Below, piece after piece: positions 10,593 through 44,871 of a stretch of 64,000 nt of DNA. This stretch comes from Cornus controversa (taxonomy: Eukaryota; Streptophyta; Magnoliopsida; Cornales; Cornaceae): the NCBI GenBank assembly GCA_026545225.1, contig CM048854.1, positions 29,611,230-29,675,229 of the forward strand, given 5' to 3'. Position numbers and translations under genes: made by a program. Under the pieces are notes generated by a model. It saw nothing but the letters and a program-made list of their open reading frames with translations. It did not search any database and was not told the DNA's origin. Position 1 is the stretch's first letter, and each line of letters opens with the position of its first letter.

Positions 10593-12470
10593 TTAGGCTT
10601 GGACATTCATGTTTTCCTTTGGCACAAACTTCTGAATCATTTTGAGGAGTGCAGGGTCTTGACCAGTAGTGTAGAGTGGATGTAGTAACATAGAAAAAGT
10701 AGACGAATCCGGTGAAAAACCCTTCTTGGTCATTTCCTCTAAAAGTGTCACTGCCTTGTCCAACTTTTCCTTCCTAATACATCCTTGGATTATAGTGTTG
10801 TAAGTGACACGATTAGGCAAGCAACCAGACTCTTCCATTTTCCTGAGCAGCTGTTCTGGTTCCTCCAGTATTCCTTCTAGACAAAGTCCCTGTATAAGTA
10901 TATTATATGTAATAACATCAGGCTGTAGCCTTTTAAGAAAAAGGTTACCATAAAGACCCCAAGCAACATCAAATTTTCCATTCTTGCAAAGTCCATCAAT
11001 GAGGATGTTGTAAATAGAAATATGAGAACTTAATCCCTGGCTTTCCATCATGTGAAATATTGACAACGCTTCAGAAATGTGCCCGTTTTTGCACAGGCCA
11101 TCCAACAGGACACAGTACGTGTAAATACTTGGAACTTGGCCCCTAGCTTGCATCTCATTCAGAAGCTTTCTCGCTACAGCACATCTACCATTTCGGAACA
11201 ACCTCTGCAGCATAGTGTTGTAAGTACCAATTGTAGGTTCCAATCCTTTACTTGGCATTTCTCGCAAGAGATGCATGGCCTCGTCAATCTTCATTTGATT
11301 GCAATATCCATTGATTAAAATGGTATAGGTAAAAGTGTTAGGCACAATTCCCCTGTCCACCATGGAATTGAATGCTTTCATTGCTTCATCCATCTGCCCT
11401 TGCAAACAATATCCATCGATCAAAGCACTGTAAGTGACTACATTAGGATCCTCACCTCTTTGAATCATGATTTCAACTATATTCTCTGCATCTTTTACCA
11501 TCCCTTCTTTGCAAAGTGCATCTACCAAAATACTGAAGGTACATACATCTGGAAAAATTTTCCGATCCACCATCTCATTCAATAATCTTTTAGCATCTTT
11601 CCATCGACCAAAATTGCAAAGTCCATGAATCAATGAATTGTATGTGATAACATTAGGCGAGATGCCTTTCTGAATCATTTCAGAGAAAAGGACCAAAGCA
11701 TCATCTACCATTCTGTCCTTGCAAAGACTATCGATTATCATGTTATACAATACTACTAAGTTAGCACTAGAAATACTTGTTTTCTCCAAAGCCTTAAGTA
11801 GCCCAATGGCCATGCAAGTGTTCCCTGTTTTGCAAAGACCATTTACCACTGTTATATACATGATTTCATTAGGTTCAATCTGTTTCTCCCTCAGCAGCAG
11901 CAGCTTGTTGAATAACTCCATTGCCTCGGCACTTTTACTTTCTAAGAAAAGCCCTTTTATCAGAGTGGTGAAGGTAGTCACATCTGGTACATAACCACGT
12001 TTGAATAGGTCGGCTGAAGTAGCAAACCCGAAACCGACTCGACTCAGGTGGCAATAACAGTTGATTACAATGTTCATGGTGTAAAGATCAACAGAAATAC
12101 CCAGCAAACGCATTTCATTGTACAGACTAACAACAGCTGAGTAATGTTTCATTCTGGTAATAGAACCTAATAGTTTATTAAATTCAATAACACAAGGCAG
12201 AGGTCGCGTTCGGACCATCCGATTGAATAAATTGAGAGCGTCTTCAAGTTTATTATGATTAATTGTTGGCTTCCCAGACAGTGATTTGCGAATTGAATTA
12301 GTAGAATGAGAGTGAAATGAAGTAACAGATGATAATGGGTTTAGGGTTAGAGAGAGAATCAGAAATGAAGTACCTTTTGGGAAATAGAAGTAATCATGGA
12401 GAGGAAATATCAATCTTCTGCAAACCAAAGCAACAGCTTCAGACCCATTTCTCTTCAATGTCGTCTTCAT
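10593..12470 (-). CDS. PPR-1: Restorer-of-fertility-like P-class PPR protein
   Basis: Intronless, 625 aa. The Arg/Lys-containing, acid-poor N-terminus (about 1-60) looks like a mitochondrial targeting peptide. The stretch LFNRMVRTRPLP (81-92) before FNKLL is a hallmark of the RFL clade (Rf1 / Rf-PPR592 / At1g12300 relatives). Fifteen tandem repeats follow from residue 95. Most are 35 residues; the third is 39 and the fifth 36, and the last (590-625) is degenerate. There is no E, DYW or other C-terminal domain, so it is P-class: expected to bind one mitochondrial transcript and promote cleavage or block translation. Base-specifying residues (position 5/last), repeats 1-14: ND, ND, TN, TN, NN, ND, SN, SN, TT, NS, CH, ND, NN, ND. 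The ATG matches that of both other copies. A foldback transposon sits about 70 bp upstream, and the TATA-bearing region kept upstream of PPR-3 is missing. The ORF is intact, but expression is doubtful. Confidence 0.92.
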   Translation of the reverse strand: MKTTLKRNGSEAVALVCRRLIFPLHDYFYFPKGTSFLILSLTLNPLSSVTSFHSHSTNSIRKSLSGKPTINHNKLEDALNLFNRMVRTRPLPCVIEFNKLLGSITRMKHYSAVVSLYNEMRLLGISVDLYTMNIVINCYCHLSRVGFGFATSADLFKRGYVPDVTTFTTLIKGLFLESKSAEAMELFNKLLLLREKQIEPNEIMYITVVNGLCKTGNTCMAIGLLKALEKTSISSANLVVLYNMIIDSLCKDRMVDDALVLFSEMIQKGISPNVITYNSLIHGLCNFGRWKDAKRLLNEMVDRKIFPDVCTFSILVDALCKEGMVKDAENIVEIMIQRGEDPNVVTYSALIDGYCLQGQMDEAMKAFNSMVDRGIVPNTFTYTILINGYCNQMKIDEAMHLLREMPSKGLEPTIGTYNTMLQRLFRNGRCAVARKLLNEMQARGQVPSIYTYCVLLDGLCKNGHISEALSIFHMMESQGLSSHISIYNILIDGLCKNGKFDVAWGLYGNLFLKRLQPDVITYNILIQGLCLEGILEEPEQLLRKMEESGCLPNRVTYNTIIQGCIRKEKLDKAVTLLEEMTKKGFSPDSSTFSMLLHPLYTTGQDPALLKMIQKFVPKENMNVQA

Positions 12471-12540
12471 CTTCGACTGTTAGTTTCTGTCAGAAATGAG
12501 CTGAGCAGTGTCTCTCATTTATGGTTTGTGTAACGTTAAA

Positions 12541-13457
12541 AAAAAATTAGAGGAGTGGTAGCCGCAGTGGCTTAAGCGACTGTTTTTGCACAATCTCTCC
12601 ATTAATCGGTGAAAATTAACCCCAAAATTAAATGCTTTCCTACAATAAATGTTCTACTTTTTCATCAATCAATATACCCTTCCAATTCTAAAGTATTTAC
12701 AGTGGTGTCATCAACAAACAAATAAAATTATAAACATAAAGCATTAAAATATTAATAAAAATAAAATTATAAACATAAAGTATATAGATTAATTGAATAT
12801 ATATATAGATTATTAAAAATATTAATAAAAATAAAATTATAAACATAAAGTATATAAATTATTAAAAATATTAATAAAAATAAAATTATAAACATAAAGT
12901 ATATAGATGAATTGAATAAGTATATAGATTATTTTAATTAATTGAATAAGTATATAAAAAAAATATTCATAAAAATATTTTAATACTTTAAAAATATGTT
13001 CTTTAATTCAATTAACCATAATTACAAAATTTTAATAAAAGAACATATTTTTAAAGTATTAAAATATTTTTATGAATATATTTTTTTATATTTTCTTGCT
13101 TTTAAATATTTTTAATAATCTATATACTTATTCAATTAAAAATAATTACAAATTTTTAAAAATTATATAGGAAATGATTATAATAAGTATATAGATTATT
13201 AAAAATATTTAAAAGTAGGGCAATATAAAAAATATATTAATAAAAGTTTTTAATACTTTATGTTTATAATTTTATTTATTTGTTGATGGCACCACTGTAA
13301 ATACTTTAAAACTAGAAGGGTACATTGATTGATGAAAAAATAGGACATTTATTGCATAAAAGCATTTAATTTTGGGGATTGATTTCCACCAATCAATGGA
13401 GCGACTGTGCAAGGACACTCGCTTGAGCAACTGCCGCTAGCACTCCTCAAAAAATTA
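12541..13457. mobile_element. Foldback/MULE-like element with 9-bp target duplication
   Basis: An 899-bp element (12,550-13,448) is flanked on both sides by the identical 9-mer aaaaaatta (12,541-12,549 and 13,449-13,457). The ends are long inverted repeats of about 195 bp starting GAGGAGTG-TAGC-GCAGT, with arms 12,550-12,745 and 13,255-13,448. A second inner inverted repeat (12,965-13,005 against 13,038-13,085) makes most of the element one hairpin. Nine-bp duplications and long TIRs point to a non-autonomous Mutator-like element. There is no transposase. It is absent from the homologous flanks of PPR-2 and PPR-3. Confidence 0.85.
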
Positions 13458-14569
13458 TCATGACATTATTTTACGTTCCTCTAACTAATTTAAGGCCTTT
13501 GGAATCGGTTTTGAAAAACTGCTTTTGACTTTTGACTTATTAATCGGTTATTGGGAGGAATTGAACTTGATTGAGGACGACTTCTAAATTAATGGAATGC
13601 TTTTACTACTAACTCACCAACGAGTTTTGTTTACATATGTCACAATAATAATATTTAATCTATAATAATTAAAGTTTGAACTTAATAAAATTTGAAACAT
13701 TAATTAAATTACAATAATATTTCTCCCCTCATTTTGAATCTAACAAACAAACTTTATTAATTATATTAACTAAGTAATTAAATCAATAACACAATTTTCA
13801 CTATTTTGAAATCAAATAAAAACATTAATCTCAATCAAATAAAAGAGCATTTAGAACAAACATTAAGTACATATCTCATTAAATTAACATATTTTATAAT
13901 ATATATTAATATTGAAATATTATTGACAAAAAATAAAGGAGTGGTTTAACTCATATTACTTTAACTATTATATGTTATAATATATATCTCGGGACAATAA
14001 AGAAAACTTAATTTCATAAAATTAGATATTCAAATCAAATGGTTTAAACTCGTCAATTATTCTAATTGATTTTTTAGACACTTAACTAATTAATCAAAAT
14101 TTGAAGAAATATAAGAAAATAGTTTAACTTATATTACTTATAGCTGTTATATGTTATATTATATATCTCAGGATACTAAAGAACAATTATGGCCATCATT
14201 TATATAAATAAATAAATATATATATATATATATATATATCCTCCATATATATAATTATATATATATCCACCATATATTACCAGCACCCCATAATCTGATA
14301 TACATTCACATCTCCTTCTGAAAATTAAATAATAAGGAAGAAAAGAAAAGACATTATTATCTTCGGTAATCATCACTCCCATGGTCAAGTATGATACAAT
14401 CAAGCCCACATCGGTGTAACATAAAAAAAATCGATTATCGCAAGAATTTGATAGAAATGATTTATTGATTTCTTGGAGACCATTTAGCATAAGTAATTAT
14501 TTATTTATAAATTGAATGTCCATGTCTTTATTAAAAAAGTGAGTAGCTGTTTTTTTACTAAATCAATTA
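13458..14569 (-). other. Distal 5' flank of PPR-1, no gene
   Basis: AT-rich DNA; from about 13,545 it is homologous to 46,250-47,251 upstream of PPR-3. It includes an (AT)n tract at about 14,210-14,240. Short open frames here lie in low-complexity sequence and are not supported as genes. Confidence 0.6.
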
Positions 14570-15229
14570 TGTACACACAAATTTCGTGTCCGAAAATCTA
14601 GGAACTAAAATTAGTGACAAATAAACAATTTTTATTGATTCAAGAAAAAGGGTACAATCCTCTGTAAATCTTTACAAAAGAAATATGAAAATAAGGTCCT
14701 CTGATTCGATCTCCTTGGTAATCCGACTTCAAGGGCTGCAAGAGCTTGATCTTGAGCTGGATTGAAACTTTAGTGAAGAACTACACGTGGATGATGTGCT
14801 TGTTGTTCTTCTCCTTCAAGGTTTATGTGTTTTGGAGCTTTGGATTTTGAGTAAAGACTTCTGTAGAATTTAAGCTTTTTTCTGAGAATCTTCTGGCCCC
14901 TTCTCCCACCTCTGGACCTTTATTTATAGGTTCACCGGATGGGTAGATTTGTAACTTTCTTTTCCTTTAATAATTATCCTATAATTATCTTCTATGATAA
15001 TTTTGATAATTATCCAATATATATATATATATATAAAATTATCCATTAGACCCATTTTCAAGTGGGCTTTGACTTCTTAGACAATTTAGACCAGCCCATA
15101 ACTCATTTATTTGTGGTGGGTCTGGGCTTCAAATTATCTGACTCATTGGGCCACATTTCAAAGTAGGCTAAACTGAAGATAAACCCAAATTGTATTTTGG
15201 GTCTATTATGTAATTTTTTAATGTCTACA
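14570..15229 (-). repeat. 3' LTR (element sense) of the 14.6-21.0 kb element
   Basis: Starts tgtacacacaa and ends atgtctaca. Partner of 20,377-21,038. Confidence 0.9.
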
Positions 15230-15299
15230 AATTGCCTCCACTTCAAGTGTCGCGCTATCTTGAGCTTATTACAAACCTAAAGCGGGACTTAAAGTATTT

Positions 15300-15620
15300 A
15301 ACTTTCGCAATTTTTTTTTTTTGCAAAAATCCAACTGCAAGGATTTTTTTTTTTTTCTTCCAAATGGAATTGTAAACTTGAGGATCCTATTGCAAATAAT
15401 AAAAATTTTCATTATCCAAGTGGAATTGAAGACTTGAGAATCCTATTGCAAATAAGATTTTTTTTTTATCCAAGTGGAATTGAAGACTTGAGCATCCTAT
15501 TGCAAATAGGATTTTTTTTTCTTGTCCAACTGAAATTGTATACTTGAGGATCCTATAGCAAATAGGATTTTTTTTCTTATCCAACTGAAATTGTAGACTA
15601 AAAATCCAATAGCAAATAGA
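15300..15620. repeat. Tandem array of about 60-bp units inside the LTR element
   Basis: Five to six diverged units built on 'tccaa-tggaattg-agacttgag-atcctattgcaaatag' separated by T runs. Non-coding. Confidence 0.8.
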
Positions 15621-15714
15621 ATTAATTCACATCTATATATATGTGACTTATGCTTGAAACTCTTCACATCAAAGATAATTGAAGAAAATCTTCTGAACTT
15701 TTGTAACGGTACGC

Positions 15715-16505
15715 TCTTCTCTTCTTCTTCTTCTTCTTTTTTTTCTTCCTGTTCTATCTTTTTTTTTTTTTTGACGCTGCCTTCTGTTATACATTCTGCC
15801 TTTCTTTTTTTTTTTTTTTCTTGCACAGCTTTTTCCTTTTTTTTTTCTTTTCTTTTTTCTTCTCCTCTTCCAGCGCCTGTATTTTTTTTCCCTTTTTTTT
15901 CTCTCTTTTTCTTCTTCTTTCTTTTCTTCTCTTCTTTCTTTCTTTTTTTTCTTTTTCTTCTTCTTTCTTTTCTTCTTCTCTTCCAGGCGGATGCTTCTTT
16001 TTTTTTTTCTTCTTTCTTTCTTTCTTTCTTCTTCTTTCTTTTCTTCTTCTCTTCCAAGCACATGTCTTTTTTTTTTTCTTCTCTTATTTTTTCTTTCCTT
16101 CCACGCCACTTTTTTTTTTCTCTTTTTCTTCTTCTTTCTTTTCTTCTCTTCTTTCTTTTTTTTTTTTTCCAGGCACATGTCTTTTTTCTTTTTTTTTTTC
16201 TTCTCTTCTATTTTTCTTTCCTTCCACGCCACTTTTTTTTTCTCTTTTTCTTCTTCTTTCTTTTCTTCTCTTCTTTCTTTTTCTTCTTCTCTTCCTTCTT
16301 TTTTTTTTTCTTCTTTTTCTCTTTCTTTTCTTCTTCTCTTCCAAGCACATGTCTTTTCTTTTTTTTTTCTTCTCTTCTTTTTTCTTTCCTTCCATGCCAC
16401 TGTTGGATCTTTTTTTTCTTTTTTTCTCTTTTCTTCCTCTCTATTTTTTTTTCTCCTTCTTCTCTTCTTTTTCTTTCCTTCCACGCCACTGTTTTTTTTT
16501 TCATG
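15715..16505. repeat. Long polypyrimidine (CTT-rich) tract
   Basis: About 790 bp of almost pure pyrimidine on the plus strand, interrupted by short recurring words such as ccaagcacatgtc and ccttccacgccac that mark an underlying tandem structure. Lys/Glu- or Phe/Ser-rich open frames here come from composition and are not genes. Confidence 0.9.
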
Positions 16506-16944
16506 ACTGGTTGTGTAGAAACATGAAAAAAAAATAAAGGTTTCAATGTTGCTAGCTGATGTTAAACTTAAGACCTCAAGGAGCTTTATTATAGTATCAA
16601 ACCATCTTTTCTACACCACTCTTATGTATTATAAACTCTTGAAACAAAATATATATGTGGCTAAACTTTGAAATGAACATTTTTCTTTAGTAACAACTTT
16701 ATTTTCCGTGACCGCTATTAATCAAATCTATTTTTTTTTCAAATCAGATTTCACTTGTGGGCCCTGCTCGAATTTTGTGTTGTCTCTGGAACGACGAATA
16801 GATCTATCGAACTCATTGAGGAAGATAACTTTACGTAAATCACTCAACTTTTCTTGGCAAGTTTTAAAATTTTTTTTTTTTTCAATTCTTGCAGGTCAAA
16901 TCGTCTTTCTCAGAATATGGAGTTTCAGACGCCATTCATTAGTC

Positions 16945-17275
16945 CCTTCGGGGTCCCTTAGTGCACTTCGGTGTCACTTTTTTTTGTCCCTTCGGGGTCC
17001 CTTAGTGCACTTCGGTGTCACTCGTTCGTCCCTTCGGGGTCCCTTAGTGGTCCCTTCGAGGTCCCTTAGTGCACTTCGGTGTCACTCTTTCGTCCCTTCG
17101 GGGTCCCTTAGTGCACTTCGGTGTCACTCTTATTGTCCTTTCGGGGTCTCTTAGTGCACTTCAATGTCACTCTTTCGTCCCTTCGAGGTCCCTTAGTGCA
17201 CTTCGGTGTCACTCTTATTGTCCTTTCGGGGTCCCTTGGTGCACTTTGGTGTCACTTTTTCGTCCCTTCGGGGTC
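16945..17275. repeat. Tandem array, about 42-bp unit, 8-9 copies
   Basis: The unit is gtcccttcggggtccctta + gtgcacttcggtgtcact + c/t run, quite homogeneous and GC-richer than its surroundings. Because 42 is divisible by 3 it yields repetitive open frames, which I regard as by-products. Confidence 0.9.
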
Positions 17276-17379
17276 AAGCCAAGTCACCACGATGCAGCAG
17301 ACATCCGTCAATATCTCGGCGGTAGGTCAGGTCACCCAACTCTTCTATTGCAAGCTTCAATTTTTTTTTTTTGTAAAGA

Positions 17380-17900
17380 TAGTTTATACTCATATCAAGA
17401 AATGATTATTATTATTTTTTTCATGCTGACAGTTTATATTCTTGTCATGAGTTTTTTTTTTTTTTGGTAGACAGTTTATACTCGTGTTAAGGAGTGTCAT
17501 CTTTTTTTTTTTTTTGATATACAGTTTATACTCGTATCAAGGAGTGTTTTTTTTTTTTGTAGACAATTTATACTCGTGTCAAGGAGTGTCATCTTTTTTT
17601 TTTTTTTGTAGACAGTTTATACTCGTATCAAGGAGTATCATCTTTTTTTTTTGGTAAACAGTTTATACTCGTGTCAAGGAGTGTCATTTTTTTTTTTTTT
17701 TTGGTAGACAGTTTATGCTCGTGTCAAGTAGTGTCATCTTTTTTTTTTTGGTAGACAGTTTATACTCGTGTTAAGGAGTGTCATCTTTTTTTTTTTTTGA
17801 TAGACAGTTTATACTCGTGTCAAGGAGGTTCATCTTTTTTTTTTTTTGTAAACAATTTGTACTCGTGTCAAGGAGTGTCATCGACAGTTTAGGCTCGTAT
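17380..17900. repeat. Tandem array, about 45-50-bp unit, 12 copies
   Basis: The unit is agtttatactcgtgtcaa + ggagtgtcatc followed by 9-15 T. Twelve cores can be counted, with the outer ones more diverged. Confidence 0.9.
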
Positions 17901-19050
17901 CGGGGAGTACTTTTAGCTTTAATTAGTCTTTAGCTTTGCAAGACTCAGGAAACAATCCAAACTTGTGTTGAAAGGTGTGAATCAGTTCGGCGTCAATTTG
18001 AAGATTTTCTTCTTCTTTTATTTCTTCATTATACTCTTCTCGTACTTGAGAAGAAACATCGTCTTCGTACTCGTCTCCCCACCCAGAAGGAAGAGGTATT
18101 TCATTCGTCGTGGTCCATGTAGGAGGATTGAACCTCACCCAATATGCTTTTATTCCGCTACGAGATTCGATCTAGACAGCATCTTCGGGCTTTGGTCCCC
18201 ACACTTTTCCTTTTTCTAGTCTTTTAATTTTTGACCATCTCGTTCCATCTGGGATTGTAAACAATTTTGTTCTTGTTCCTCGCTTTCTTCTTCGAGACCT
18301 TCGTTTCGCTGATTGTTAGAGACAGTTCGAGAAAGTGACTGTTGAGACATCACTCGTGTGTTTCTAAGTCATGATTCTTGCGAGATCTTTTCATAATCAT
18401 TCCCTTCTTGAGCATTCTTCTTTGGCCTCTAAGCAAGCACAGTATTTTGAACTCTCCTAGTTGAAGTTGTTTAAGTGAAATTTGACAAAATATTCCGATA
18501 CCGCATCTTCAACACAAATCCTCGAGATTTGTCATTTTGGTTATGCTTTTGTTTTTCTTGTTTTCTTCTTGGGACTTCTTTCTTATTTCTGGATTTGATA
18601 AAATGTGTAGGCCTTTTTAAAAGACAGCCGTGAATCTTGCCCCATGCCAAGGATATTCATGTGAGAAAGTTGGGAATGAGTCTTGTATGCAAGATTTGCC
18701 CCCTGTCTATTCAGTCTTCTATCAAGGTTTTCTTGACTTAATGTCTTATTTAATCGAGAACTATCAGATGAATTCACGGAAGGAACACGATGTGTTTTTT
18801 GATACAGTTCATTAGAGACGATACTTGTAACATAAGATGTATTTATTTCATCGTCCGAGTTAGGAAGTATTTCGTCTTCCTCTTTCTCTTCAAACTCAAC
18901 CTCTTCATCTTTAAGACAGTTGTCAGACAGATTAGGAAAGACAAAAGCCTTTGCACCATGACTTGTTATACTGAGTTCTATATCATAGGCACGAGTAACC
19001 AATTCTTCAAATGTACGAGGCTTGATTCCTTGTAGAATGTAAAGAAGATC

Positions 19051-19415
19051 CTAGTGCATGCCTTGCATACACATTTCAACTGCTAATACTTCAGAAAAAC
19101 GGTCCTTACAATCAAGACTTAGAGCTCGCCAACGGTTGATATAGTCGACCACAAGCTCGTCCTTAATTTGTTTCATGCTAGTGAGTTCTAGCATGCTTGC
19201 TGTTCTACGAGCACTGTAGAAGCGGTTAAGAAACTCTCGCTCCATCTGCTCCCAACAGTCAATACTTCTAGCTTTGAGGTCCGTGTACCAATCAAATGCA
19301 TTCCCTTTGAGGGAACGAACAAATTGCTTGACCAAGAGATCCTCTTCGGTGCCAGCATTATTGCAGGTCTCCACAAAGTGTGCAACATGTTGTTTGGGAT
19401 TGCCTCTTCCATCAA
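19051..19415 (-). mobile_element. gag core fragment (Retrotrans_gag type, fossil)
   Basis: Minus-strand peptide with FVRSLKGNAFDWYTDL, CWEQMEREFLNRFYS and VVDYINRWRALSLDC. This is the typical plant Ty3 gag core (x-L-x-G-x-A-x-x-W-Y; x-F-x-x-R-F). It is not continuous with the N-terminal frame at 19,604-20,288. Confidence 0.8.
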
Positions 19416-19603
19416 ATTATTAGAACTTTGGCAGTTGATATCCCACTGGCGTCTTTAAACTGTCAATTCTTTCGGTGTAGGGTTTTGAGTACACAAGAGT
19501 GCTTTGAGGGGCACCATCATACTGTGCTCAGATTGTGTTCATTATTATATCTTGCAACTGTTGGACAGATAACAAAGCAACTGACGAAACAGGGTTAGTT
19601 TTG

Positions 19604-20288
19604 TCAGCCATGTGTCTTGACGTAGATGTGTGATGACACTCTTTTGATTAGGCACCTTGAAGAGGAATTTGAAGTATTCGCAGGCAAATGTGTTGACTTG
19701 TCAGGATTTTGGATTTCAAGCTTCCTCATTAGCGCGGCGATCTGCAAGTCCTTCTCTTCGACAGTCTTTGCGAGGTTTTTTATTACACGCGCCATGACTG
19801 CCAGTTGGTCTTCCATTGAGGTTGTTCCAGTCATCATAGCTACGACAACATTCGAATAGGAAAAACCTTGAGGGCCAATATTCTTTGAAGGGATCGATTG
19901 CTCTGAAATCTCAAGTAACGACTCTGAAAGCGAACCGACGCTAGAGTTAGCGTCAGAGACGGAGTGGGGTGAATGTGGTGGCACCGAATTTTCTGAAACT
20001 ACATCAGAGTTTTTTGCCCCCTGAAGACCAATGGTGTTAACATGTTTAGTTTTCACATCCATTGGTTTAGCAGGATTAGTTTTCACCAAATATTGCTGAT
20101 TCTTGAACGAAGCAATTGCTTTGGTCTTGCTACGCGTCATAAGACCTACTGAGGTGCTGTTGGCACTTGACAGGTTCCTAGTGTTCTTATCACTGCTTAC
20201 AGCAACTTTGGTGTTAACCATTGCAGCAGCGGTTTCTTTTATTTTTTTTGAGTTTTTCTTGTTTGTCGTCTGAACCTTGATAGGAGCC
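19604..20288 (-). mobile_element. gag N-terminal region (fossil)
   Basis: A minus-strand frame with a natural start at MAPIKVQTT (about 20,288). It is Ser/Lys-rich with a predicted coiled coil near the end (MEDQLAVMARVIKNLA, then VEEKDLQIAALMRKLE), as in the N-terminal part of gag in many plant Ty3 elements. It lies directly downstream of the LTR and primer site in element sense. Confidence 0.65.
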
Positions 20289-20376
20289 ATAGATTCTGAT
20301 GAACAGAGTTTTGGAGGTATGATGTAGGAGACAGAGATGAGAGGCAAAGATGGTCCCACCTGGCGTGCCAGAAATT

Positions 20377-21038
20377 TGTACACACAAATTTCGTGTCCGA
20401 AAATCTAGGAACGAAAATTAGTGACAAATAAACAATTTTTATTGATTCAAGAAAAAGGGTACAATCCTCTGTAAATCTTTACAAAAGAAATATGAAAATA
20501 AGGTCCTCTGATTCGATCTCCTTGGTAATCCGGCTTCAAGGGCTGCAAGAGCTTGATCTTGTGTTGGATTGAAACTTTAGTGAAGAACAGCACGTGGATG
20601 ATATGCTTGTTGTTCTTCTCCTTCATGGTTTATATATTTTGGAGTTTTGGATTTTGAGTGAAGACTTCCGCAGAATTTAAGCTTTTTTTTTTAAAATCTT
20701 CTGGGCCCCTTCTCCCACCTCTGGACCTTTATTTATAGGCTCACCAGAGGGGTAGATTTGTAACTTTCTTTTCCTTTAATAATTATCCTATAATTATCTT
20801 TTATGATAATTTTGATAATTATCCAATATATATATATATATATATAATTATCTATTAGACCCATTTTCAAGTGGGCTTTGACTTCTTAGACAATTTAGAC
20901 CAGCCCATAACTCATTTATTTGTGGTGGGTCTGGGTTTCAAATTATCTGACTCATTGGGCCACATTTCAAAGTGGGCTAAACTGAAGATAAACCCAAATT
21001 GTATTTTGGGTCTATCATGTAATTTTTTAATGTCGACA
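20377..21038 (-). repeat. 5' LTR (element sense) of the 14.6-21.0 kb element
   Basis: Starts tgtacacacaa and ends atgtcgaca. Followed by the target repeat aatga and then cluster DNA that continues the PPR-1 5' flank. Confidence 0.9.
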
Positions 21039-29710: not shown

Positions 29711-29904
29711 TTACGCTACCAGCATCTCAGGTTGGCCGGACAAGCATGGGGTACTTAACAAGTAATATGATCCTAGTAGTTGGTGATGATATTGCAGTAG
29801 AGTTGAATTTGCAAATGAAAGTGATCAATTCATGGAAGTTTAACAAATTGATAAAAAATAAATATATTGGACAATGGAGATCATAATTCGGTATTCATCA
29901 GAGC

Positions 29905-31907: not shown

Positions 31908-31911
31908 TAAG

Positions 31912-34900
31912 CCATAATAGTTCCAAAAGTAAGCATCTAAAAGGAGGCAATGATTTGTCAATTATCTTAATCTCACCCTAGATCTCCAAAAGACATGGAT
32001 TCTACAAAAAGAAAAATAAAAGAATAATAAAATGGAAAAGAAGTAGTCCATTGCAAATGAGAATTCCCAAACAGTATCAGGACAATGTCATCATAACCAT
32101 ATACAATGACAGCCATCCCCTGCATCCACAATAGTACAATACTGCAACATGCCAATTGCCCATGGCTTCTGGTATCAAAATTAATTTATATGAGAAATGT
32201 ACTTCAATTAAAGCACAGTTTGTCTCTGGTTTATCCAGTCACTCGATCCTTGCTTGATGCCATTCCATTAATAGAAATACAACTTCTTATTTCTACGCAA
32301 AAATGGTGTCATGTCTCAAGATGTTTGAGGATACATTAAACTTGCATTCAAGCTAAGGAAATAATCTAGTCCATAATCACACATGGAGGAAAAATTTGAA
32401 TATTTTTTCATGACCATTGGCCAAATGAAAATATAATTAAAGATGGAGAACTTTAATATAGAAGACATTGGGACCACAAGCAACTAGGCAATATAAAGTA
32501 TTTCTTTAAGCAACAATGAAATGGCACAGACCTTGTTGCAGCAGGGAACATGTTCCTGCAAAGTCTTTATTCCTTTTGCTATCCTTTCTCTACGCAATTG
32601 TTAAAGAGAAATGGAGCTGTCAATGTGAAGCAATGGCAAAAAGGCAACGATATGCAAAGATAAAACTCTCCCCACCATGTTCACCAAAACAGAAACATAT
32701 GTAATGATAATATTATATTTTGTTTATTTGCTTTTTAAGCTTCCATATGGATTATTTTGTGTTCGAATTTTCTTTAATAATTTTTTTTATAAAAAATAAA
32801 ATAAATAAAAAATGAGTTTATTCATCTTGGAATAAACTTCCGTCTCCCTCCCTCTTCTTACAAGGATTAGGAACAAATGAAATTTTATTTTCCTTGCGTA
32901 AAACAATCCAGGGAGTGTCATCGGCCCCTGCAACCAAAGCCTGCAAGCCTTAATTACTCCATTAACAATAATACATGTTTAGACCAATGAACCAGCTCAA
33001 AATGCAATACAGCAATCATCTACATCGATCAACATTCCTAAAGTAGGACAAAACTACTAATTCATTTCCATGTATGCATTGCATGGATGGTCTAACCCAC
33101 TTTGTCAAAAATGGGCTGAGGCACACATTCATGATTCATGTTTTCACAATTAGTTGAACTCAAATAAACTAAAGGCTCATTTTCGAATTCATTCCATGTG
33201 TGCTCGCAGTTCATATACATGCATACAAACATCCATATATATATATAGAGAGAGAGAGAGAGAACCCTCAATTTGGTTGCACCTTGCTGATGAATTCTCT
33301 CAATAGCTCATTGACAGGAGTATTTTCTAGTAAATTAATTTTCACCACATATACATAATACATATTACAAACTCATCATTAAGTCCATTCTGTATCCCAA
33401 CAACACAACTAGTCGGCTATCCTAACAAGCCCGAGAAGGGCTAAACTAAAATGAAAGCAAAATCACTATGTTAAGATTCTCCTACATCTCCCTCCATTTT
33501 CTTTCCTTTCTTTTCTCATTTTTAGAACTAAATATATAATATTTCCCTCTTTTCCCTTTCATTTCTTTTCTTTTAACTCCCCAATTCCAAACGATCCCTA
33601 ATAAAAAGCCCTTTCGACTAAGAAACACAGATTATTGGAGCATCAACTTAAATTGGACATGGCGAGTGAAAAAAATTTAAAGTGAATACCTTAAAATCAT
33701 AAGAGGTAACTTTCCCGGCATACCATATATCAAACAGTAGGAAGAATGGCCACTTTCCCCATCTATAAGGAGAACAGATAAAATAGAACAAAATAAAAAA
33801 TTATAAGGAGTTATTTCCTCAACTTCAGCTAACATCAAGGAAAAAAAAACTTAGAACAAACTAGATGCATTAGCTTCAACATCAATCTTACAATTTACCA
33901 CATTATGACTATACTCAGTTAAAGGATGAAGTCTCCATCAATTCCAAGAATGAAGTCTGCATCAATGCCTTAGAAATCATTGTTGAAGTTATTGTCACAG
34001 GTAAAATATAAAATTGCAATGGAAACAAAAATGATCTAAATGCCCTTGAACATGGAATTAGTTGTGCAGATCATACCTATCTCAATCAAGATATTCAACA
34101 AATTGTTACTATTTTGCTCAATAAAACCATTAATTGCATACCAACATCACTAGTAGTTGCACAATTTAAGTCTTAAAAATGAATCCCTCAGAAGTTTGAG
34201 CTAACCTGCTATGCCCAAGTTCAAGAAAAGGTTTAAGGCCATATTAGTGAATACCGCAAAAAGTTTAAACAAATATACTAATTTTGACTTCACAAAATCT
34301 TAAACTAACAAAATGCCAAATTGAACTATATTGTCAGAGTAAATTAATACTGAACTTTATTCAAATCCTAATTATTTTTTATTAATTCCAAAAAAAAAAA
34401 AGTGGATTTGTTCAATTCATTAACTGTTGTCATCATGGTAATGAGATTGTGACAACAATCTGAACTATATCATGGTTCGTGAATCATGGTGTAAAGACTC
34501 AAGAAGTCAAATATAATTCTCTTTAAGGAATAAAAAAAAGGAAAAGAGGAAATTATTACTTGTGTTATAAATAGACAGAATTTTCTAACACCCCAAAAAT
34601 TTGACAAAAAGGCAGAAAACACCCAAGATTAAAAAAGAAAATTGGCATATATATGAACATATCAACTCAATAAAACTAAATAAAATCTTTATTGCAATAC
34701 ACATATAAATGAATCTTCGCAAATGAAAATGTGGAAGAATTGAATATATGTTGCCACTTATCCTCTCATGAAACCAAAAACATATTATGTTTTTCTCATT
34801 GGAGCTTGAAAAATCCTCAACCTGAAGTAATCATGCACCATCTAGCTCTCTTGGGCTCACTTGTAGCCATTTTTTAATAACCAAGAGTGTTAGTTTCATT

Positions 34901-35200
34901 TTCCCTCTGTCTCAACTTCCTAAGCATAAATTATTCAACTCATAAGCGTGTTATTGAGTGGTAAAATAGTAATTTATAAAAACATAATTGTGTCAAAGTC
35001 TCCTAAGCTAGAATACTCACAAAATGCAATAAAACTGAAAAGGGGCACATCTAGATATTGGATATGGAAACATGACACTTGTAGCTCTTTTAGCAGAAAT
35101 AAAAGCAAGTATACACTCACACAAAACACAGAAACATGCACGCGCATGCTCACATGCAGAGAGAGATCATCTTCAGTCCATTTAACTTTAGTCCTTCAAA
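31912..35200. other. Intergenic, no gene recognised
   Basis: Only short open frames without domain or codon support. It contains a (TA)n(GA)n microsatellite at 33,235-33,262 and general AT-rich DNA. I found no homology elsewhere in the window. Confidence 0.5.
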
Positions 35201-35205
35201 AAATT

Positions 35206-35725
35206 ATTTATTTATTCTTTTTTCATTGGAAGGAAACTCACTCACTTTGGAAGGTAGAGGATATACCATTTGGCTACACCCCTTGGTGGTCTTCAAAAAG
35301 CTTCTCTACTCTATTCAACTTCACCAAAGAGCTTCATAGTTGGATTGTACTAGAGAATTAACCAGATAGAGATTACAGCCTCCTGCAAGAATTTTAATAA
35401 AAATTAGTAGACAGCACAACAAATCCTACCATGTCACAAAGATAAGTGACTTGACTGAACATCAAGTAATTCTACCCTGCTGAATTGAAATGCCATCATA
35501 CATGACATGAATGTGTTAGTAAATATACAGAATTTTAATCTTACCACTTGAATCTTTAAATTCTACAAGAATACCAAACTATAGGAGTTACAGTCGTCAC
35601 ACGTAGTCATCCCCATTTGCGTTTAAGTCTTAGTACTAGGTTGCATCACAGGAGAGCGAAGATTGGTGTTAGCATTCTAGAGGAAGGGCATGAGAGATTG
35701 AAAGAACCAAGTTTCAAGATGTTTA
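35206..35725. repeat. Duplicated intergenic block, copy B
   Basis: Nearly identical to 2,966-3,500. The right edge fuses directly to PPR-2 coding sequence. Confidence 0.8.
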
Positions 35726-35729
35726 AACT

Positions 35730-37360
35730 TCCCTCCTAATACATCCTTGGACTATAGTATTGTAAGTGACACTATTAGGCAAGCAACCAGCCTCGTCCAT
35801 TTTCCTGAGCAGCTTTTCAGCTTCCTCCAGGAGTCCTTCTAGACAAAGTCCCTTTATTAGTATAGTATACATCTTAACATCAGGCTGTAGCCTTTTAAGA
35901 AAAAGGTTACCATAAAGACCTCAAGCAACATCAAATTTTCCATTCTTGCAAAGTCCATAATTGAAAATGTTGTAAATAGAAATATGAGAATTTAATCCAT
36001 GGCTTTCCATCATGCGAAATATTGACAATGCTTCATAAATGTGCCCATTTTTGCACAGGCCATCCAACAGGACACAGTATGTGTAAATATCTGGAATTTG
36101 GCCCCTAGCTTGCATCTCATTCAGAAGCTTTCTCGCTACAGCACATCTACCATTTCGGAACAATCCCTGCAGCATAGTGTTGTAAGTACCAATTGTAGGT
36201 TCCAATCCTTTACTGGGCATTTCTCGCAAGAGATGCATGGCCTCATCAATCTTCATTTGTTTGCAATATCCATTGATTAAAATGGTATAGGTAAAAGTGT
36301 TCGGCACAATTCCCCTGTCCACCATGGAATTGAATGCTTTCATTGCTTCAGCCATCTACCCTTGCAAACAATATCCATCGATCAAAGCACTGTAAGTGAC
36401 TACATTACGATCCTCACCTCTTTGAATCATGATTTCAACTATATTCTCTGCATCTTTTACCATCCCTTCTTTGCAAAGTGCATCTACCATAACACTGAAG
36501 GTACATACATTTGGGAAAATTTCCCGATCCACCATCTCATGCAATAATCTTTCAGCGTCTTTCCATTGACCAAAATTGCAAAGTCCGTGAATCAATGAAC
36601 TGTATGTGATAACATCAGGCAAGATGCCTTTCTGTATCATTTCGGAGAAAAGGACCAAAGCATCATCTACCATTCTGTCCTTGCAAAGACTCTCGATTAT
36701 CGTGTTATACACTACTACTAAGTTAGCACTAGAAATACTTGTTTTCTCCATAGCCTTAAGTAGCCCAATGGCCATGCTAGTGTTCCCTATTTTGCAAAGC
36801 CCATTTATCACCGTGTCATACGTAACCTCATTAGGTCGAATCTCTTTCTCTCTCAAGAGCTTGTTGAATAATTCCATTGTCGCGACAATTTTACGTTTTA
36901 TCAGAGTGGTGAAGGTAGCCACATTTGGTACATATGCTCATGTTATACCCATTCATCGGAATACCCAACACACACATTTTTTTGTATAGAGAAACAACAG
37001 TTGAGTAATGTTTCATTCTGGTAATAGAGCCTAATAGTTTATTAAATTCAATAACAGAAGGCAGAGGTCGCGTTCGGACCATCCGATTGAATAAATTGAC
37101 AGGTCTTCAAGTTTATTATGATTAATATTATTATTGTAAGAAACCCCAATTCTTGGCTTCTCAGATAGTGATTTGCGAATTGTAGCAGCAGCAGCATGAG
37201 AGTGAAATGAAGTAACAGCTGGTAATGGGTTGAGGGTTAGAGAGAGAATCAGAAACGAAGTACCTTTTGGGGAGTGGAAGTAATCATGAAAGGGAAATAA
37301 CAATCTTCTGCAAACCAAAGCAATAGCTTCAGCCCCATTTCTTTTCAATGTCGTCTTCAT
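35730..37360 (-). pseudogene. PPR-2: broken RFL-PPR gene
   Basis: Homologous along its length to PPR-1 and PPR-3, with the same start (MKTTLKRNG at 37,360). Defects: a 1-bp deletion near 37,098 just after KLED; a deletion of about 75-100 bp in the second repeat (near 36,940) and a smaller one in the third (near 36,885); a CAG-to-TAG stop at 36,356-36,358; a TGG-to-TGA stop at 35,921-35,923; and loss of the last ~55 codons, where the gene is fused to the block ending at 35,725. Surviving repeats carry code pairs that differ from both intact genes (repeat 5 ND, repeat 6 SN). The 5' flank still has the TATA-like stretch at about 37,420. It cannot make a full PPR protein. Confidence 0.93.
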
Positions 37361-39430
37361 CTTCGACTGTTTCTCTCAGAAATGAGCTGAGCACGGAGCA
37401 ACGTGTTCGGATCCGATTACTTTATATTTGTATACGGAGCTTTTAAGCTCCAACTCTTGTCAGGTCTGTTTATTATTTTGGTAAAAATAAAACTTTTTGG
37501 GTGAGTTTGGTAGGAAAGAAATAGAAGGAAAAGAAATGAAAGGATTTGAAGGGTTATGATTTTGTGTGTTTGGTATGAAATTTTTAAAGAAAAGAAAAGG
37601 AAATGGAATGATTTGGAGGGATAAATTAAGGGTGAATAGTTGCTTTTGTTATCCTTTCAAAAATGAGAATAAATGGAAGAAAATGAAAGAAAATGCTATT
37701 TTTTTAATGAAACTTTGTTAATACCAACTTTGACTTTATTTTGATAAAAGCTAAAACTTGTTCTTTTAAATATAAAATGGTATAATGGAAAAAAATTTAA
37801 ATTGTTTCATTTTCTTTCTTTCCCCTAACATGTTAGCTATCATTTCTTTTTTTTTCCTTTACTAATCAACCAAACACGATAAAAGTTTAACATTATCATT
37901 TCCTTTCTTTTATTTTCTTTTCTCTCATTACTAATGTTATCATTTCATTTCTTTTCCATTCTACCAAACAAAGCCTTATCTACAAGGACTTGTTTGCAAC
38001 CGGGTGATGTATTGTAGCGAAACAAAATATTGTGTTTTTGTTGCGATTTGAATAGTATCACATTTGTTCTCGAATAGAGGTACAAATAGGAAACAAAATA
38101 TATCACATTTGTTTTTCAATCCTGCAATACTTTTTTACTAAACATATTTTTATTTTATTCCTTTCAAAAATCTTGTAACAAATTTTATGTTACCAAATAT
38201 ACTTTCAATCACCATTTAACACATTCTACAACAAAAATATTATTTATGTTTTGAATGAAAACAAAAACACAAACGAAAACGGTTGCCAAACAAGTCCTAT
38301 GGGCGTTCACTAACATAAACATTTCATGTTTTCTGTTGTCAAATCTCAAAAAAGAGAAATAAAAACAAAAATCATGTTTATTAATTTGTTTTTGTTTTTT
38401 TCGTATGTTTTTCATTTTTGGCTAGAAAGGAGAAAACATTTTCTAATTCCACCACCACTAATTTAAATATTTTAACTTGGCCTCTTTTTTTTTCAAAAAA
38501 AACTTTTTTATCTAAACATGAAACTGCATCCACATTGTCCTTGGGATTTGAACCCTCACCCTTACACTTTCAAAGTTAAAAAAGTATCACAAGGCTATTA
38601 GCTTGGTGTGCTTTTCTAATTGAAAGGATGAATTATTAGATAGACCCTAAACCATTTGGTCGAGAACAATCAAAACTCTCCAACTAAAAAAATTGGACAT
38701 AAAAAGTTTAATAAAATATTATAAAAAAACTTGAACAACAGTTTCGATTGAATTGAACCATCAAATGACTTGCGTTCCTAGATCATCAAATAATTTCTCT
38801 AATAGACTGTAGACGGGATGACAAGAAAAATAGTGTAATTTATGGCCTCTTTTTGACACAACGCCATCATCTCTCGCTCCTTTAAATAAAGCTGACACGT
38901 TTGCTTGCGTGATAACCTGTAATTAGCCGAGAGCATGTAATAATTTCTTGTAAAATGGATGATGCATATGTAAATTGCTTGGAAAAATTGGAGTATCAAA
39001 CTTTGATTGCATTGCCAAGAAAACATATAATTTAAGTGATGATAGATTGCAACATAAAAGTGAATGAGCTTTTAAGACCATCGGAAGCACTTGGTTCACA
39101 CTTTACAAATAAAAAATTAAATTTTACGGTGAAATTTAAGCTTTCAGTGACTTTCAAACTCTTGAACTGAACTACAGCCTTTAGAGCTATTAGAGATTAT
39201 TTGATCAGAGAACGTCTTTCCATCAGCCTTTTGATCTAGTTCAATCACAACTTTTCAATTAGAAAAAGGGGGCCCATAAAATTTTAGTAAGATAGTATAA
39301 AAAAAATTCAAACATGAGTTTTGATTGGACTTAACATCAATTCGCTTATGATTAGGACCATCTAATAATTTATCTATACTCGTGACTTGTATGGAAAACG
39401 AAGACTTAAAATTCTAAAAGAGACGTAACA
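37361..39430 (-). repeat. 5' flank of PPR-2
   Basis: Homologous to 3,990-5,030 (lost gene) and, in its distal part, to 47,640-48,300 (PPR-3). A TATA-like motif, read on minus as aatataaag, lies at 37,421-37,429. No gene. Several (A/T)-rich low-complexity stretches. Confidence 0.65.
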
Positions 39431-41139: not shown

Positions 41140-41590
41140 TGTCAGATATGTTGGATTGTACATGAGAATTAAGCAGATATAGATTATAGTATCCTGCAAG
41201 AATTTTAATAAAAATTAGTAGACAGCACAGCAAATCCTACCATGTCACAAGGATAAGTGACTGCATACCAAGTTCTACCCTTCTGAATTGAAATTCCATC
41301 ATATATGGCATGAATGTGTTAGTAAATATAAAGTGAGTCTTAGTACTAGGTTCTTTAATTTCTATTAGAATGCCAAATTAAGTTCTTAGTACTAGGTTTC
41401 TTTTACAAAACCAGTAAGAAAAGTAAGCATTTAAATCGTATCAGCATAAAACCAGTAAGTAAAAAAGTAAGCATTTAAATCGTATCAGCATGAGAGAAGA
41501 TAACAAATTACAGAGGTCAAGCTAGAAATTATCATTAAAAGCATCAAACAGAATCACAATCTTGGACTTGGAAGGCCAAATTTACAACTG
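41140..41590. repeat. Duplicated intergenic block plus outer 3' flank of PPR-3
   Basis: 41,150-41,330 matches 3,108-3,300 and 35,340-35,540. 41,395-41,520 matches 9,615-9,700 and holds a short direct repeat (accagtaag ... agtaagcatttaaatcgtatcagcat twice). Confidence 0.7.
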
Positions 41591-41953
41591 AAACAGGAAA
41601 CTCACTGGCACAAAAAAACTACATTTTTCTTCTCATAGCCATTTGTTACCGTCACGGTTCACCCAATTACGACCCAACAATCCCCTTCAATAATAATAAT
41701 GGCAGCTCCCAAATTCCATTCCACAGACCACTTAAGTGCTTGTTTTGCTACAAGAGCTTCAGCTAAATTTACTGAGGGGGATTTTCAAATGCTCCGGCAG
41801 TCTTCATGAGTCAAAAATTGTTGCAACAAAGAGCTATCCAAATCTTTAGTGTGGGGTTGAATAATTGGGATCAAACACAAAAATCAGCAACATCAGGGAG
41901 CAAAGCGTCCTGCCAAACATCCACTCGATCTCCCTCAGCAATACAACATCTCA
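41591..41953 (-). mobile_element. LINE ORF2 relic (copy in PPR-3 flank)
   Basis: The minus strand encodes AEGDRVDVWQDALLPDV (about 41,885-41,940) and AEALVAKQALKWSVEWNLG (about 41,710-41,765). It is the same relic as 9,690-10,247 and was therefore duplicated with the flank. Interrupted frames. Confidence 0.65.
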
Positions 41954-42092
41954 AGTAGGGGTGACAATTTCCTCCGCCTGGCGGGTTTCCGCCCCAGTCC
42001 GCCCCTAATGGAAGGGATTTGGTCCGCCCTTAATAGGAGTAGGGGTGGGTATGGGTTTTTTAAGAAAACCCGTCTAGTACCCGCCCACCCAG

Positions 42093-42132
<40 letters not shown>

Positions 42133-42613
42133 CATAATTGTATGAAGTGTGCTATTTCTTTTATTATTATATTACTTATATAAATATAGTATACTAGATA
42201 TATGACAGTCATTAGGGTTAAATTGTTCTGCGCTATTTCTCTATTTATCTTATGGCTAAAAGAGAACTCTCTCTATCTTGTGTAGATAATAGATTTATAA
42301 TAAAAAAAATTCTTGAAGACCAAAACCGTTTCTATCTCCATCTACATATGTATGTATGTTTGTGTCATTTTCTTTGGTCTTATATATTGGGGTTTTGACT
42401 GTACGAATGTTGTATCATCGTTAAGGTAAATTTAGCCCAAATATCGAATTCAAAGCAAATAAAGCAAAAGATTTTAAGGATTTTGTTATTCCTTTCTTTC
42501 TCTAAATAAGACGGTGATGATATGCTTACCACAAACCTGTTAGGGTTCTTAACGGAAGATGAATTTAGTATTTTCTTGACGGGGCGGGTAGGGTTTTGGC
42601 ATACCCACCCCGT
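41954..42613. mobile_element. 660-bp insertion, possible hAT-like non-autonomous element
   Basis: Exactly absent from the PPR-1 flank, where catctca is followed directly by tgccatac. The ends are agtaggggtgacaa and, reversed, acggggtgggtatgcc, sharing only ggggtg-type termini, and no target duplication is visible. The interior has a (TA)n tract (42,093-42,127) and no coding domain. The taggggtg-ac start links it to hAT-like ends at 46,128 and 21,476. Confidence 0.5.
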
Positions 42614-42996
42614 TGCCATACCGAATTACCTCTCCACTATACCAAACACTCTTCCCTGCAATGTTTTTAAATTGAAAAATGCTCCACTTGGATAAATTCA
42701 CATCTTTTTATCTTCTTAGCTACTGAACATGCATAAAAGTTTTCCGCATTCATAATAGACAAACAGAAATTAAATGTTAGGAATCATTCAAGCGCAATTA
42801 TTTTTTGGTGATTCAATCCATTTAGTGATTGCAGTCAAATGATCACATTCTACACAAGGATGATGCCTAAAAACTATCTAGCAAGATAGTTTCGCAACAG
42901 TAATTACAAACGGATTATGGAATATATCCAATAATCCTAACAAATAAACACCGACAATATTATCCAACCTGAGAAGTGCAGAAATCCATGCAACAC
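42614..42996 (-). repeat. 3' flank of PPR-3
   Basis: Homologous to 10,205-10,592 and 3,635-3,960; expected to hold the 3'UTR. Confidence 0.65.
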
Positions 42997-44871
42997 TTAG
43001 GCTTGGACATTCAAGTTTTCCTTTGGCATGAACTTCTGAATCATTTTGAGGAGTGTAGGGTCTTGACCAGTAGTGTAGAGTGGATGTAGTAACATAGAAA
43101 AAGTAGACGAATCCGGGGAAAAACCCTTCTCGGTCATTTCCTCTAAAAGTGCCACTCCCTTGTCACACTTTTCCTTCCAAATACATCCTTGAATAATAGT
43201 GTTGTAAGTGACACTATCAGGCAAGCAACCAGCCTCTTCCATTTTCCTGAGTAGCTCTTCAGCTTCCTCCAGTAGTCCTCGTACACAAAGTCCCTTCATT
43301 AGTATAGTATACGTCTTAACATTAGGCTGTAGCCTTTTAAGAGAAAGGTTACCATAAAGGCCCCAAGCAACATCAAATTTTCCAATCTTGCAAAGTCCAT
43401 CAATGAGGATGTTGTAAATAGAAATATGAGAACTTAATCCCTGGCTTTCCATCATGTGAAATATTGACAACGCTTCAGAAACGTGCCCGTTTTTGCACAG
43501 GCCATCCAACAGGACACAGTAAGTGTAAATATTTGGAATTTGGCCCCTAGCTTGCATCTCATTCAGAAGCTTTCTCGCTGCAGAACATCTACCATTTCGG
43601 AACAACCCCTGCAGCATAATTGTGTAAGTATCAATTGTAGGTTCCAATCCTTTACTGGGCATTTCTCGCAAGAGATGCATGGCCTCATCAATCTTCATCT
43701 GTATGCAATATCCATTGATTAAAGTGTTATAGGTGATATTATTTGGCACAATTCCCCTGTCCACCATGGAATTGAATGCTTTCATTGCTTCATCCATCTG
43801 CCCTTGCAAACAATATCCATCAATCAAAGCACTGTAAGTGACTACATTAGGATCCTCACCTCTTTGAATCATGATTTCAACTATATTCGCTGCATCTTTT
43901 ACCATCCCTTCTTTGCAAAGTGCATCTACCAAAATACTGAAGGTACATACATTTGGAAAAATTTCCCGATCCACCATCTCATTCAATAATTTTTTAGCGT
44001 CTTTCCATCGACCAGAATTGCAAAGTCCATGAATCAATGAATTGTATGTGATAACATTAGGCAAGATGCCTTTCTGAATCATTTCAGAGAAAAGGATCAA
44101 AGCATCATCTACCATTCTGTCCTTGCAAAGGCTATCTATTATTGCACTATACACTACTAAGTCAGCACTAGAAATCCTTGTTTTCTCCAAAGCCCTAAGT
44201 AGCCCAATGGCCATGCTAGTATTCCCTGTTTTGCAAAGACCATTTACCACTGTTATATACATGATTTCATTAGGTTCAATCTGTTTCTCCCTCAACAGCA
44301 GCAGCTTGTTGAATAACTCCATTGCCTCGGCACTTTTACTTTCTAAGAAAAGCCCTTTTATCAGAGTGGTGAAGGTAGTCGCATCTGGTACATATCCACG
44401 TTTGAATAGGTCGGCTAAAGTAGCAAACCCGAAACCGACTCGATTCAGGTGGCAATAACAGTTGATTACAATGTTCATGGTGTAAATATCAACAGAAATA
44501 CCCAGCAAACGCATTTCATTGTACAGACTGACAACAGCTGAGTAATGTTTCATTCTGGTAATAGAACCTAATAGTTTATTAAATTCAATAACAGAAGGCA
44601 GAGGTCGCGTTCGGACCATCCGATTGAATAAATTGAAAGCGTCTTCAAGTTTATTAGGATTAATTCTTGGCTTCTCTGACAGTGATTTGCGAATTGAAGT
44701 AGTAGAATAAGAGTGAAATGAAGTAACAGATGATAATGGGTTTAGGGTTATAGAGAGAATGAGAAATGAAGTACCTTTTGGGAAATAGAAGTAATCATGA
44801 AGAGGAAATATCAATCTTGTGCAAACCAAAGCAACAGCTTCAGACCCATTTCTCTTCAATGTCGTCTTCAT
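42997..44871 (-). CDS. PPR-3: Restorer-of-fertility-like P-class PPR protein
   Basis: Intronless, 624 aa, the closest relative of PPR-1 and built the same way: likely mitochondrial presequence (about 1-60), the RFL hallmark LFNRMVRTRPLPSV, then 15 PPR motifs with the same 39-residue third repeat and no C-terminal catalytic domain. Base-specifying pairs, repeats 1-14: ND, ND, TN, TD, SN, NN, SN, SN, NT, TN, CH, NN, TD, ND. Seven of these differ from PPR-1 (repeats 4, 5, 6, 9, 10, 12, 13), so it should bind a different RNA. It keeps a TATA-like element about 110 nt upstream and has no transposon between promoter and ATG. It is the best candidate for an active restorer-type gene here. Likely role, from the family only: processing or silencing of a mitochondrial transcript. 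Confidence 0.93.
   Translation of the reverse strand: MKTTLKRNGSEAVALVCTRLIFPLHDYFYFPKGTSFLILSITLNPLSSVTSFHSYSTTSIRKSLSEKPRINPNKLEDAFNLFNRMVRTRPLPSVIEFNKLLGSITRMKHYSAVVSLYNEMRLLGISVDIYTMNIVINCYCHLNRVGFGFATLADLFKRGYVPDATTFTTLIKGLFLESKSAEAMELFNKLLLLREKQIEPNEIMYITVVNGLCKTGNTSMAIGLLRALEKTRISSADLVVYSAIIDSLCKDRMVDDALILFSEMIQKGILPNVITYNSLIHGLCNSGRWKDAKKLLNEMVDREIFPNVCTFSILVDALCKEGMVKDAANIVEIMIQRGEDPNVVTYSALIDGYCLQGQMDEAMKAFNSMVDRGIVPNNITYNTLINGYCIQMKIDEAMHLLREMPSKGLEPTIDTYTIMLQGLFRNGRCSAARKLLNEMQARGQIPNIYTYCVLLDGLCKNGHVSEALSIFHMMESQGLSSHISIYNILIDGLCKIGKFDVAWGLYGNLSLKRLQPNVKTYTILMKGLCVRGLLEEAEELLRKMEEAGCLPDSVTYNTIIQGCIWKEKCDKGVALLEEMTEKGFSPDSSTFSMLLHPLYTTGQDPTLLKMIQKFMPKENLNVQA

Follow-up and report, generated by a model that had tools for sequence, protein, structure and literature searches.

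Gene copies and repeat register

The DNA analysed here is a 64,000-nucleotide stretch of Cornus controversa contig CM048854.1 (positions 29,611,230 to 29,675,229 of the forward strand, assembly GCA_026545225.1), referred to below as the window, which on its gene content and repeats reads as plant nuclear DNA. It carries two intact, intronless P-class pentatricopeptide repeat (PPR) genes, one truncated PPR pseudogene and two relics. PPR-1 (10593-12470, minus strand) and its paralogue PPR-3 (42997-44871, minus strand) have open reading frames (ORFs) of 625 aa and 624 aa, each with 14 full repeats and a partial fifteenth, and are 94.6% identical in nucleotide and 90% in protein sequence. Both match the Pfam model PPR_2 (E 1.1e-151 for PPR-1 and 3.9e-157 for PPR-3). 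The pseudogene PPR-2 (35729-37360, minus strand), described by its alignment to PPR-1, has a 1-nt deletion, a 77-nt deletion and, read in register with PPR-1, two stop codons; its 3' end is missing. An earlier note on this DNA had likewise reported two intact copies and one broken copy. Its term "three sisters" is loose, since PPR-1 and PPR-3 are the closest pair and PPR-2 lies outside them: 97 sites set PPR-2 apart, 51 PPR-3 and 29 PPR-1, and 5 sites of the three-copy alignment show three states.

A further copy survives as the 3' end of a gene at 9484-9609 (minus strand), in two pieces with 84-86% identity to PPR-1. The stretch at 3632-3948 (minus strand) resembles the 3' flank of PPR-1 and PPR-3, with 13-14% difference, and adjoins DNA matching the region upstream of PPR-2; it reads as the probable site of a lost PPR copy. 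A search of the window with the PPR-1 repeats (E up to 10) turned up no additional PPR gene; its two other matches had E values of 1.8 and 9.1. Among the first 60 aa of PPR-1, 6 are K/R, 2 are D/E and 15 are S/T, a composition that is at most compatible with mitochondrial import.

Repeat boundaries were set by the VxTYN register, which yields 35 aa for 11 of the 14 full repeats of PPR-1 and 36-38 aa for the other three. At E up to 0.001, the Pfam matches of PPR-1 and PPR-3 comprise PPR, TPR-like and helical-repeat models (for example MRP-S27 and Mtf2, and for PPR-3 also ECSIT_N), with no E or DYW model among them; both proteins carry tandem 35-residue repeats without a PLS, E or DYW extension, as in the P class. 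The register matches that of the designer PPR protein dPPR-U8G2 of a solved structure (5i9h, E 3.3e-137) from repeat 5 to the start of repeat 10 only, the alignment covering query residues 238-420 in a query that began at codon 2 and is numbered one lower. Over these aligned repeats, positions 5 and 35 are in register with the base-reading residues of solved PPR proteins. PPR-1 and PPR-2 have an extra residue at the junction of repeats 4 and 5, which makes residue 35 of PPR-1 repeat 4 uncertain, either N or Leu.

Code residues of the three copies

The code pair of each repeat was taken as residues 5 and 35. In the order PPR-1/PPR-2/PPR-3, the pairs are ND/NN/ND at repeat 1, ND/SN/ND at repeat 2, TN/TN/TN at repeat 3, IN/DN/ID at repeat 4, NN/ND/SN at repeat 5, ND/SN/NN at repeat 6, SN in all three at repeats 7 and 8, TT/TT/NT at repeat 9, NS/ND/TN at repeat 10, CH in all three at repeat 11, ND/ND/NN at repeat 12, NN/TN/TD at repeat 13 and ND/N-/ND at repeat 14. 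PPR-1 and PPR-3 therefore differ in 7 of 14 pairs (repeats 4, 5, 6, 9, 10, 12 and 13), or 9 of 28 residues, the same seven repeats that the earlier note had listed. Its reading of repeat 4 as TN/TD was mistaken: both intact genes have Ile at position 5 (EIMYI) where PPR-2 has Asp, which gives I-N for PPR-1 and I-D for PPR-3. The third states that it saw in PPR-2 at repeats 5 (ND) and 6 (SN) are present, but pairs absent from both intact genes occur at seven repeats rather than two, the others being repeats 1 (NN), 2 (SN), 4 (DN), 10 (ND) and 13 (TN); those of repeats 1 and 2 are less sure, as they adjoin the 77-nt deletion.

Bases were assigned by the code given in parts of PMC10487680 (ND to U, NN to C, SN to A) and of PMC5075784 (TD to G, TN to A, NS and NT to C). 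The predicted targets are UUA?CUAA?C?UCU for PPR-1 and UUA?ACAACA?CGU for PPR-3. The proposal that the two proteins have different targets is borne out, as a prediction, at repeats 5, 6, 10, 12 and 13, five of the 11 that can be read in both proteins, whereas the base contrast at repeat 4 (A/G) is unfounded and two of the five differences are U/C, bases that the PPR code separates poorly.

The differences between PPR-1 and PPR-3 are concentrated at code residues in rate, not in number. It had been claimed that the copies differ mainly at these residues, but only 9 of the 63 amino-acid differences lie there and 54 lie elsewhere. Relative to their number, code residues differ at 9 of 28 against 42 of 466 for other repeat residues (Fisher p 0.001), a change rate more than three times that of the rest of the repeats; permutation within repeats gave p 0.0006. 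All p values are single-test values, here for one gene pair. One codon gapped in PPR-3 was dropped, and two partly gapped codons in the three-way alignment leave 465 other residues there in place of 466. The (5,35) mask ranks first among 35 cyclic shifts, with 9 differences against 7 for the next. When the whole difference pattern was rotated, keeping its clustering, at least 9 residues were reached in 3 of 493 rotations and 7 repeats in 8 of 493. Per position, 5 of 14 repeats differ at position 35 and 4 of 14 at position 5. Comparisons involving PPR-2, which leave out stops, gapped codons and all codons before 160, point the same way, at 7/24 code against 47/374 other residues for PPR-1 (p 0.03) and 11/24 against 56/372 for PPR-3 (p 0.0006), although they share sequences with the PPR-1/PPR-3 comparison and are not independent of it.

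The non-synonymous to synonymous rate ratio (omega) was estimated with a pairwise codon model of GY94 type (F3x4) in our own script. Over the whole gene it is 0.61 by counting and 0.67 by likelihood, which is mild constraint. The earlier note would have counted its reading as refuted had the ratio not been raised at the fifth and last positions. That outcome did not occur: code codons have an omega of 1.83, compared with 0.61 for the others (likelihood-ratio test p 0.007), and for non-code codons a value of 1 is weakly rejected (p 0.04). As a neutral yardstick we used the rate in the non-coding flanks, 115/1946. Code codons show 9.5 non-synonymous changes against 4.3 expected at the flank rate (Poisson p 0.03 for 9 or more, in a post hoc test that counts clustered changes singly), and outside the code 58.8 were counted against 82.2 expected (p 0.004). 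The code sites change faster than the framework, and the flank comparison suggests that they also change faster than neutral.

Interpretation of the code-site changes

We read the locus as a young tandem array of P-class PPR genes of the restorer-of-fertility-like (RFL) type, in which copies diversify through duplication, decay, changes at code sites and possibly short gene conversion, with a probability of about 0.78. Several PPR copies arose by local duplication; PPR-2 and the two relics decayed, and PPR-1 and PPR-3 were kept intact. The framework of these two is under mild constraint, and their two base-reading residues per repeat have changed more than three times as often, from which it is predicted that the two proteins recognise different mitochondrial RNA sequences. 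Of the nine code changes, five came in short clusters, perhaps as small conversion tracts from other RFL copies or as multi-base mutations, and four are isolated single-base changes. Duplication, decay, intact frames, the excess of code change and its clustering are seen in the sequence itself, whereas RFL identity, mitochondrial targeting, conversion and altered targets are inferred. The reading draws on the P-class PPR content, the agreement of register with 5i9h, the code-residue excess, the omega contrast, the comparison with the flank rate, the clustering of differences and published parallels (PMC5075784, PMC7380019, PMC1892557).

Several points, some in this paragraph and others in the two that follow, weigh against this reading. 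The omega of the code codons is not significantly above 1 (p 0.14), and variation at repeat positions 1 and 22 equals that at position 5 (4/14 each): three of 595 position pairs score 9, namely (5,35), (1,35) and (22,35), so that (5,35) is tied for best. By Nei-Gojobori counting, dN at code codons is 0.145, against 0.044 at the other repeat codons, and dS is 0.24 against 0.084, with nearly equal ratios of 0.60 and 0.52; the code-codon dS rests on 2.5 changes, on 12 sites, against 24.2 on 303. Because code codons thus show more synonymous change as well, their local rate may be raised. Relaxed constraint or raised mutation could then stand in place of positive selection, the code residues of redundant paralogues drifting and the framework being kept for folding. 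Besides the high synonymous rate and the non-significant code-site omega, this alternative draws on the whole-gene ratio, on the four isolated single-base changes among the nine code changes, and on the fact that N, D, S and T lie only one or two bases apart. It is opposed by the excess of non-synonymous code change over the flank rate, with the limits of that test given above, and by the Bayes empirical Bayes analysis of clustered barley RFL genes, which in the part of PMC7380019 used here finds selection at positions 5 and 35. We regard it as unlikely, though it merits attention.

The differences are also clustered along the genes. Of 98 nucleotide differences between PPR-1 and PPR-3, 42 fall in 8 clusters of at least 4 differences with gaps of at most 9 nt, a rule picked with the alignment in view, whereas random scatter gave a mean of 15.2 and reached 42 in 0 of 5000 runs; clusters were also listed at gaps of 6 and 12, and the re-tests used a gap of 9 only. 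Some clusters carry synonymous changes and one lies beside a 3-nt gap. Five of the nine code changes are in clusters, as are 4 of the 6 on the PPR-3 branch when polarised by PPR-2. Code changes fall in four of the clusters, each 13-28 nt long and located on a repeat boundary or immediately past it, where residues 35 and 5 of successive repeats are neighbours. The PPR-3 branch is longer than that of PPR-1 (51 against 29 changes, p 0.018), and both are overdispersed, with variance-to-mean ratios of 2.5 (p 8e-5) and 1.7 (p 0.015), respectively. Short conversion tracts from other RFL genes would fit this pattern, with multi-base mutation perhaps another source. Conversion from unsampled RFL paralogues might even account for most of the difference, the code excess then reflecting imported tracts and not separately selected mutations; recombination among rice RFL genes, as documented in sections of PMC5075784, agrees with this. 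With the 51 cluster codons dropped, which was done in these re-tests only, the count contrast is weak but persists (code 4/22 against other 25/428, p 0.045), and the omega contrast of 1.43 against 0.63 has p 0.17. A mosaic test of the three copies found no breakpoint (runs p 0.64, maximum chi-square p 0.46; p 0.44 and 0.29 from coding position 478 on). A donor search of the whole window for four of the eight clusters found none, with only short or poor matches beyond the sister copies. The isolated code changes likewise speak against wholesale conversion, as does the account of Brassica and Arabidopsis RFL genes in PMC5080715, which in the portion cited reports no clear domain exchange, although one whole coding sequence was replaced by conversion. 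We hold this explanation to be a serious one that falls somewhat short of even odds. The narrower idea that PPR-3 owes most of its changed RNA specificity to the import of very short tracts, which would make sub-repeat gene conversion a code-swapping mechanism in RFL clusters beside whole-motif exchange, is more doubtful and is offered tentatively.

The RFL identity of the cluster is itself a weak point of the preferred reading, in that it follows from sequence features, the RFL-type motifs that suggested the name, and not from a tree. Some RFL-like traits are present, with 14 motifs in one ORF, a pseudogene and relics alongside, and excess change at positions 5 and 35; for RFL genes, passages of PMC5075784 and PMC7380019 name a scarcity or lack of introns, at least 10 P motifs, and clusters that include partial copies. 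Against this, RFL proteins are described (in part of PMC5075784) as having 15 to 20 motifs, where the present ones have 14 full motifs and one partial, and NS and NT pairs, according to the same source unusually rare in RFL proteins, occur once each, in PPR-1 and PPR-3, respectively. A putative pair of active restorers of cytoplasmic male sterility (CMS), each gene cleaving or blocking a different CMS transcript as the earlier note implies, would be in keeping with the predicted targets differing at 5 of 11 readable repeats and with the resemblance of the cluster to a rice restorer locus (as described in part of PMC5075784); we judge this improbable.

That PPR code residues change rapidly in RFL clusters is an established rule, to judge from parts of two studies of grasses (PMC5075784, PMC7380019). 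Rice RFL genes, in the sections of Melonek et al. (2016, PMC5075784) considered, form clusters of P-class genes with rare or absent introns, arise by duplication, and show recombination between copies and a diversity at positions 5 and 35 that alters predicted RNA targets. The present cluster shares the clustering, the lack of introns, the duplication and the diversity at positions 5 and 35 with its effect on predicted targets, but lies in a different plant, shows two intact copies in view, and has substitutions and short clusters between them with no gain or loss of whole motifs. For barley, Melonek et al. (2018, PMC7380019) report, in the part cited, the strongest diversifying selection at positions 5 and 35, together with 2, 7, 8 and 29, and more of it where genes are clustered; both systems have short RFL sequences next to full ones, whereas their CODEML analysis covered many accessions and ours one pair, for which omega above 1 is not significant. 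The radish mini-cluster of Rfo, g24 and g27, for which Geddy and Brown (2007, PMC1892557) discuss a birth-and-death pattern in the section used, likewise comprises three tandem restorer-type PPR genes, but with whole-gene Ka:Ks of 1.58-2.16 in place of the ratio below 1 found here, where one copy is dead. In Arabidopsis, RPF2 and further RFL proteins read mitochondrial RNA through residues 5 and 35 and are linked to 5'-end processing, as set out in part of PMC10487680; RPF2 has known targets, whereas those given here are predicted from the code only. Diversification of this sort being published for rice and barley, the locus is one more case of a phenomenon already described. Its value lies in a recent pair of paralogues accompanied by a dead third copy, together with an insertion by which events can be ordered; it offers a setting in which to weigh point mutations against short conversion tracts as the source of altered RFL specificity. 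Fujii et al. (2011) is cited in these studies for rapid divergence and selection in RFL genes.

Duplicated units and neighbouring features

Self-comparison of the window places PPR-1 in a unit at 9632-14567, which matches 41448-47252 in pieces, and PPR-3 in a unit at 41448-47473, delimited by self-comparison and flank divergence. The synonymous distance between the two genes is 0.079, and the non-coding flanks of the units differ by 1.6-6.7% in four stretches. The 94.6% identity of the genes might suggest two alleles placed in tandem by the assembly, but the copies lie about 32 kb apart in one window without N, their flanks differ by the amount just given, and the units differ in insertions, including a long terminal repeat (LTR) element against its empty site. 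Misassembled alleles, which we consider highly improbable, were rejected on the flanks and insertions.

The LTR-retrotransposon-like insertion in the PPR-1 unit occupies 14570-21038, with LTRs at 14570-15229 (660 bp) and 20377-21038 (662 bp), and is flanked by AATTA and AATGA, a target-site duplication alike at 4 of 5 bases. Since the PPR-3 unit keeps the empty site near 47250, the element inserted after the duplication of the units. Over 667 aligned positions, taken slightly beyond the LTR ends, its LTRs differ at 33 (4.9%). The outer flanks of the units have diverged further (65/993 and 34/506) and the gene-adjacent flanks less (15/383 and 1/64); divergence alone therefore leaves the order unsettled, and the empty site settles it. 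Inside the element, low-complexity DNA with a purine/pyrimidine bias extends over a long tract (about 15.4-17.9 kb), and an ORF of 259 aa at 19604-20383 is without a Pfam match at E up to 0.01.

A second duplicated block, at 1-5027 and 22774-39426, shows piecewise matches at 88-98% identity. The copy at 22774-39426 is stretched by insertions and holds PPR-2, and from the copy at 1-5027 the PPR gene has apparently been lost; some of the pieces have further matches within the window and may be mobile elements. The ORF at 56122-56976 (284 aa) is rich in glycine/proline/serine repeats and matches the Pfam model MPLKIP only modestly, although above its curated cut-off (E 8.8e-8); we take its product to resemble plant SICKLE-type proteins. 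The ORF at 7572-8363 matches Pfam Transposase_32, a putative plant transposon protein (E 7.6e-14).

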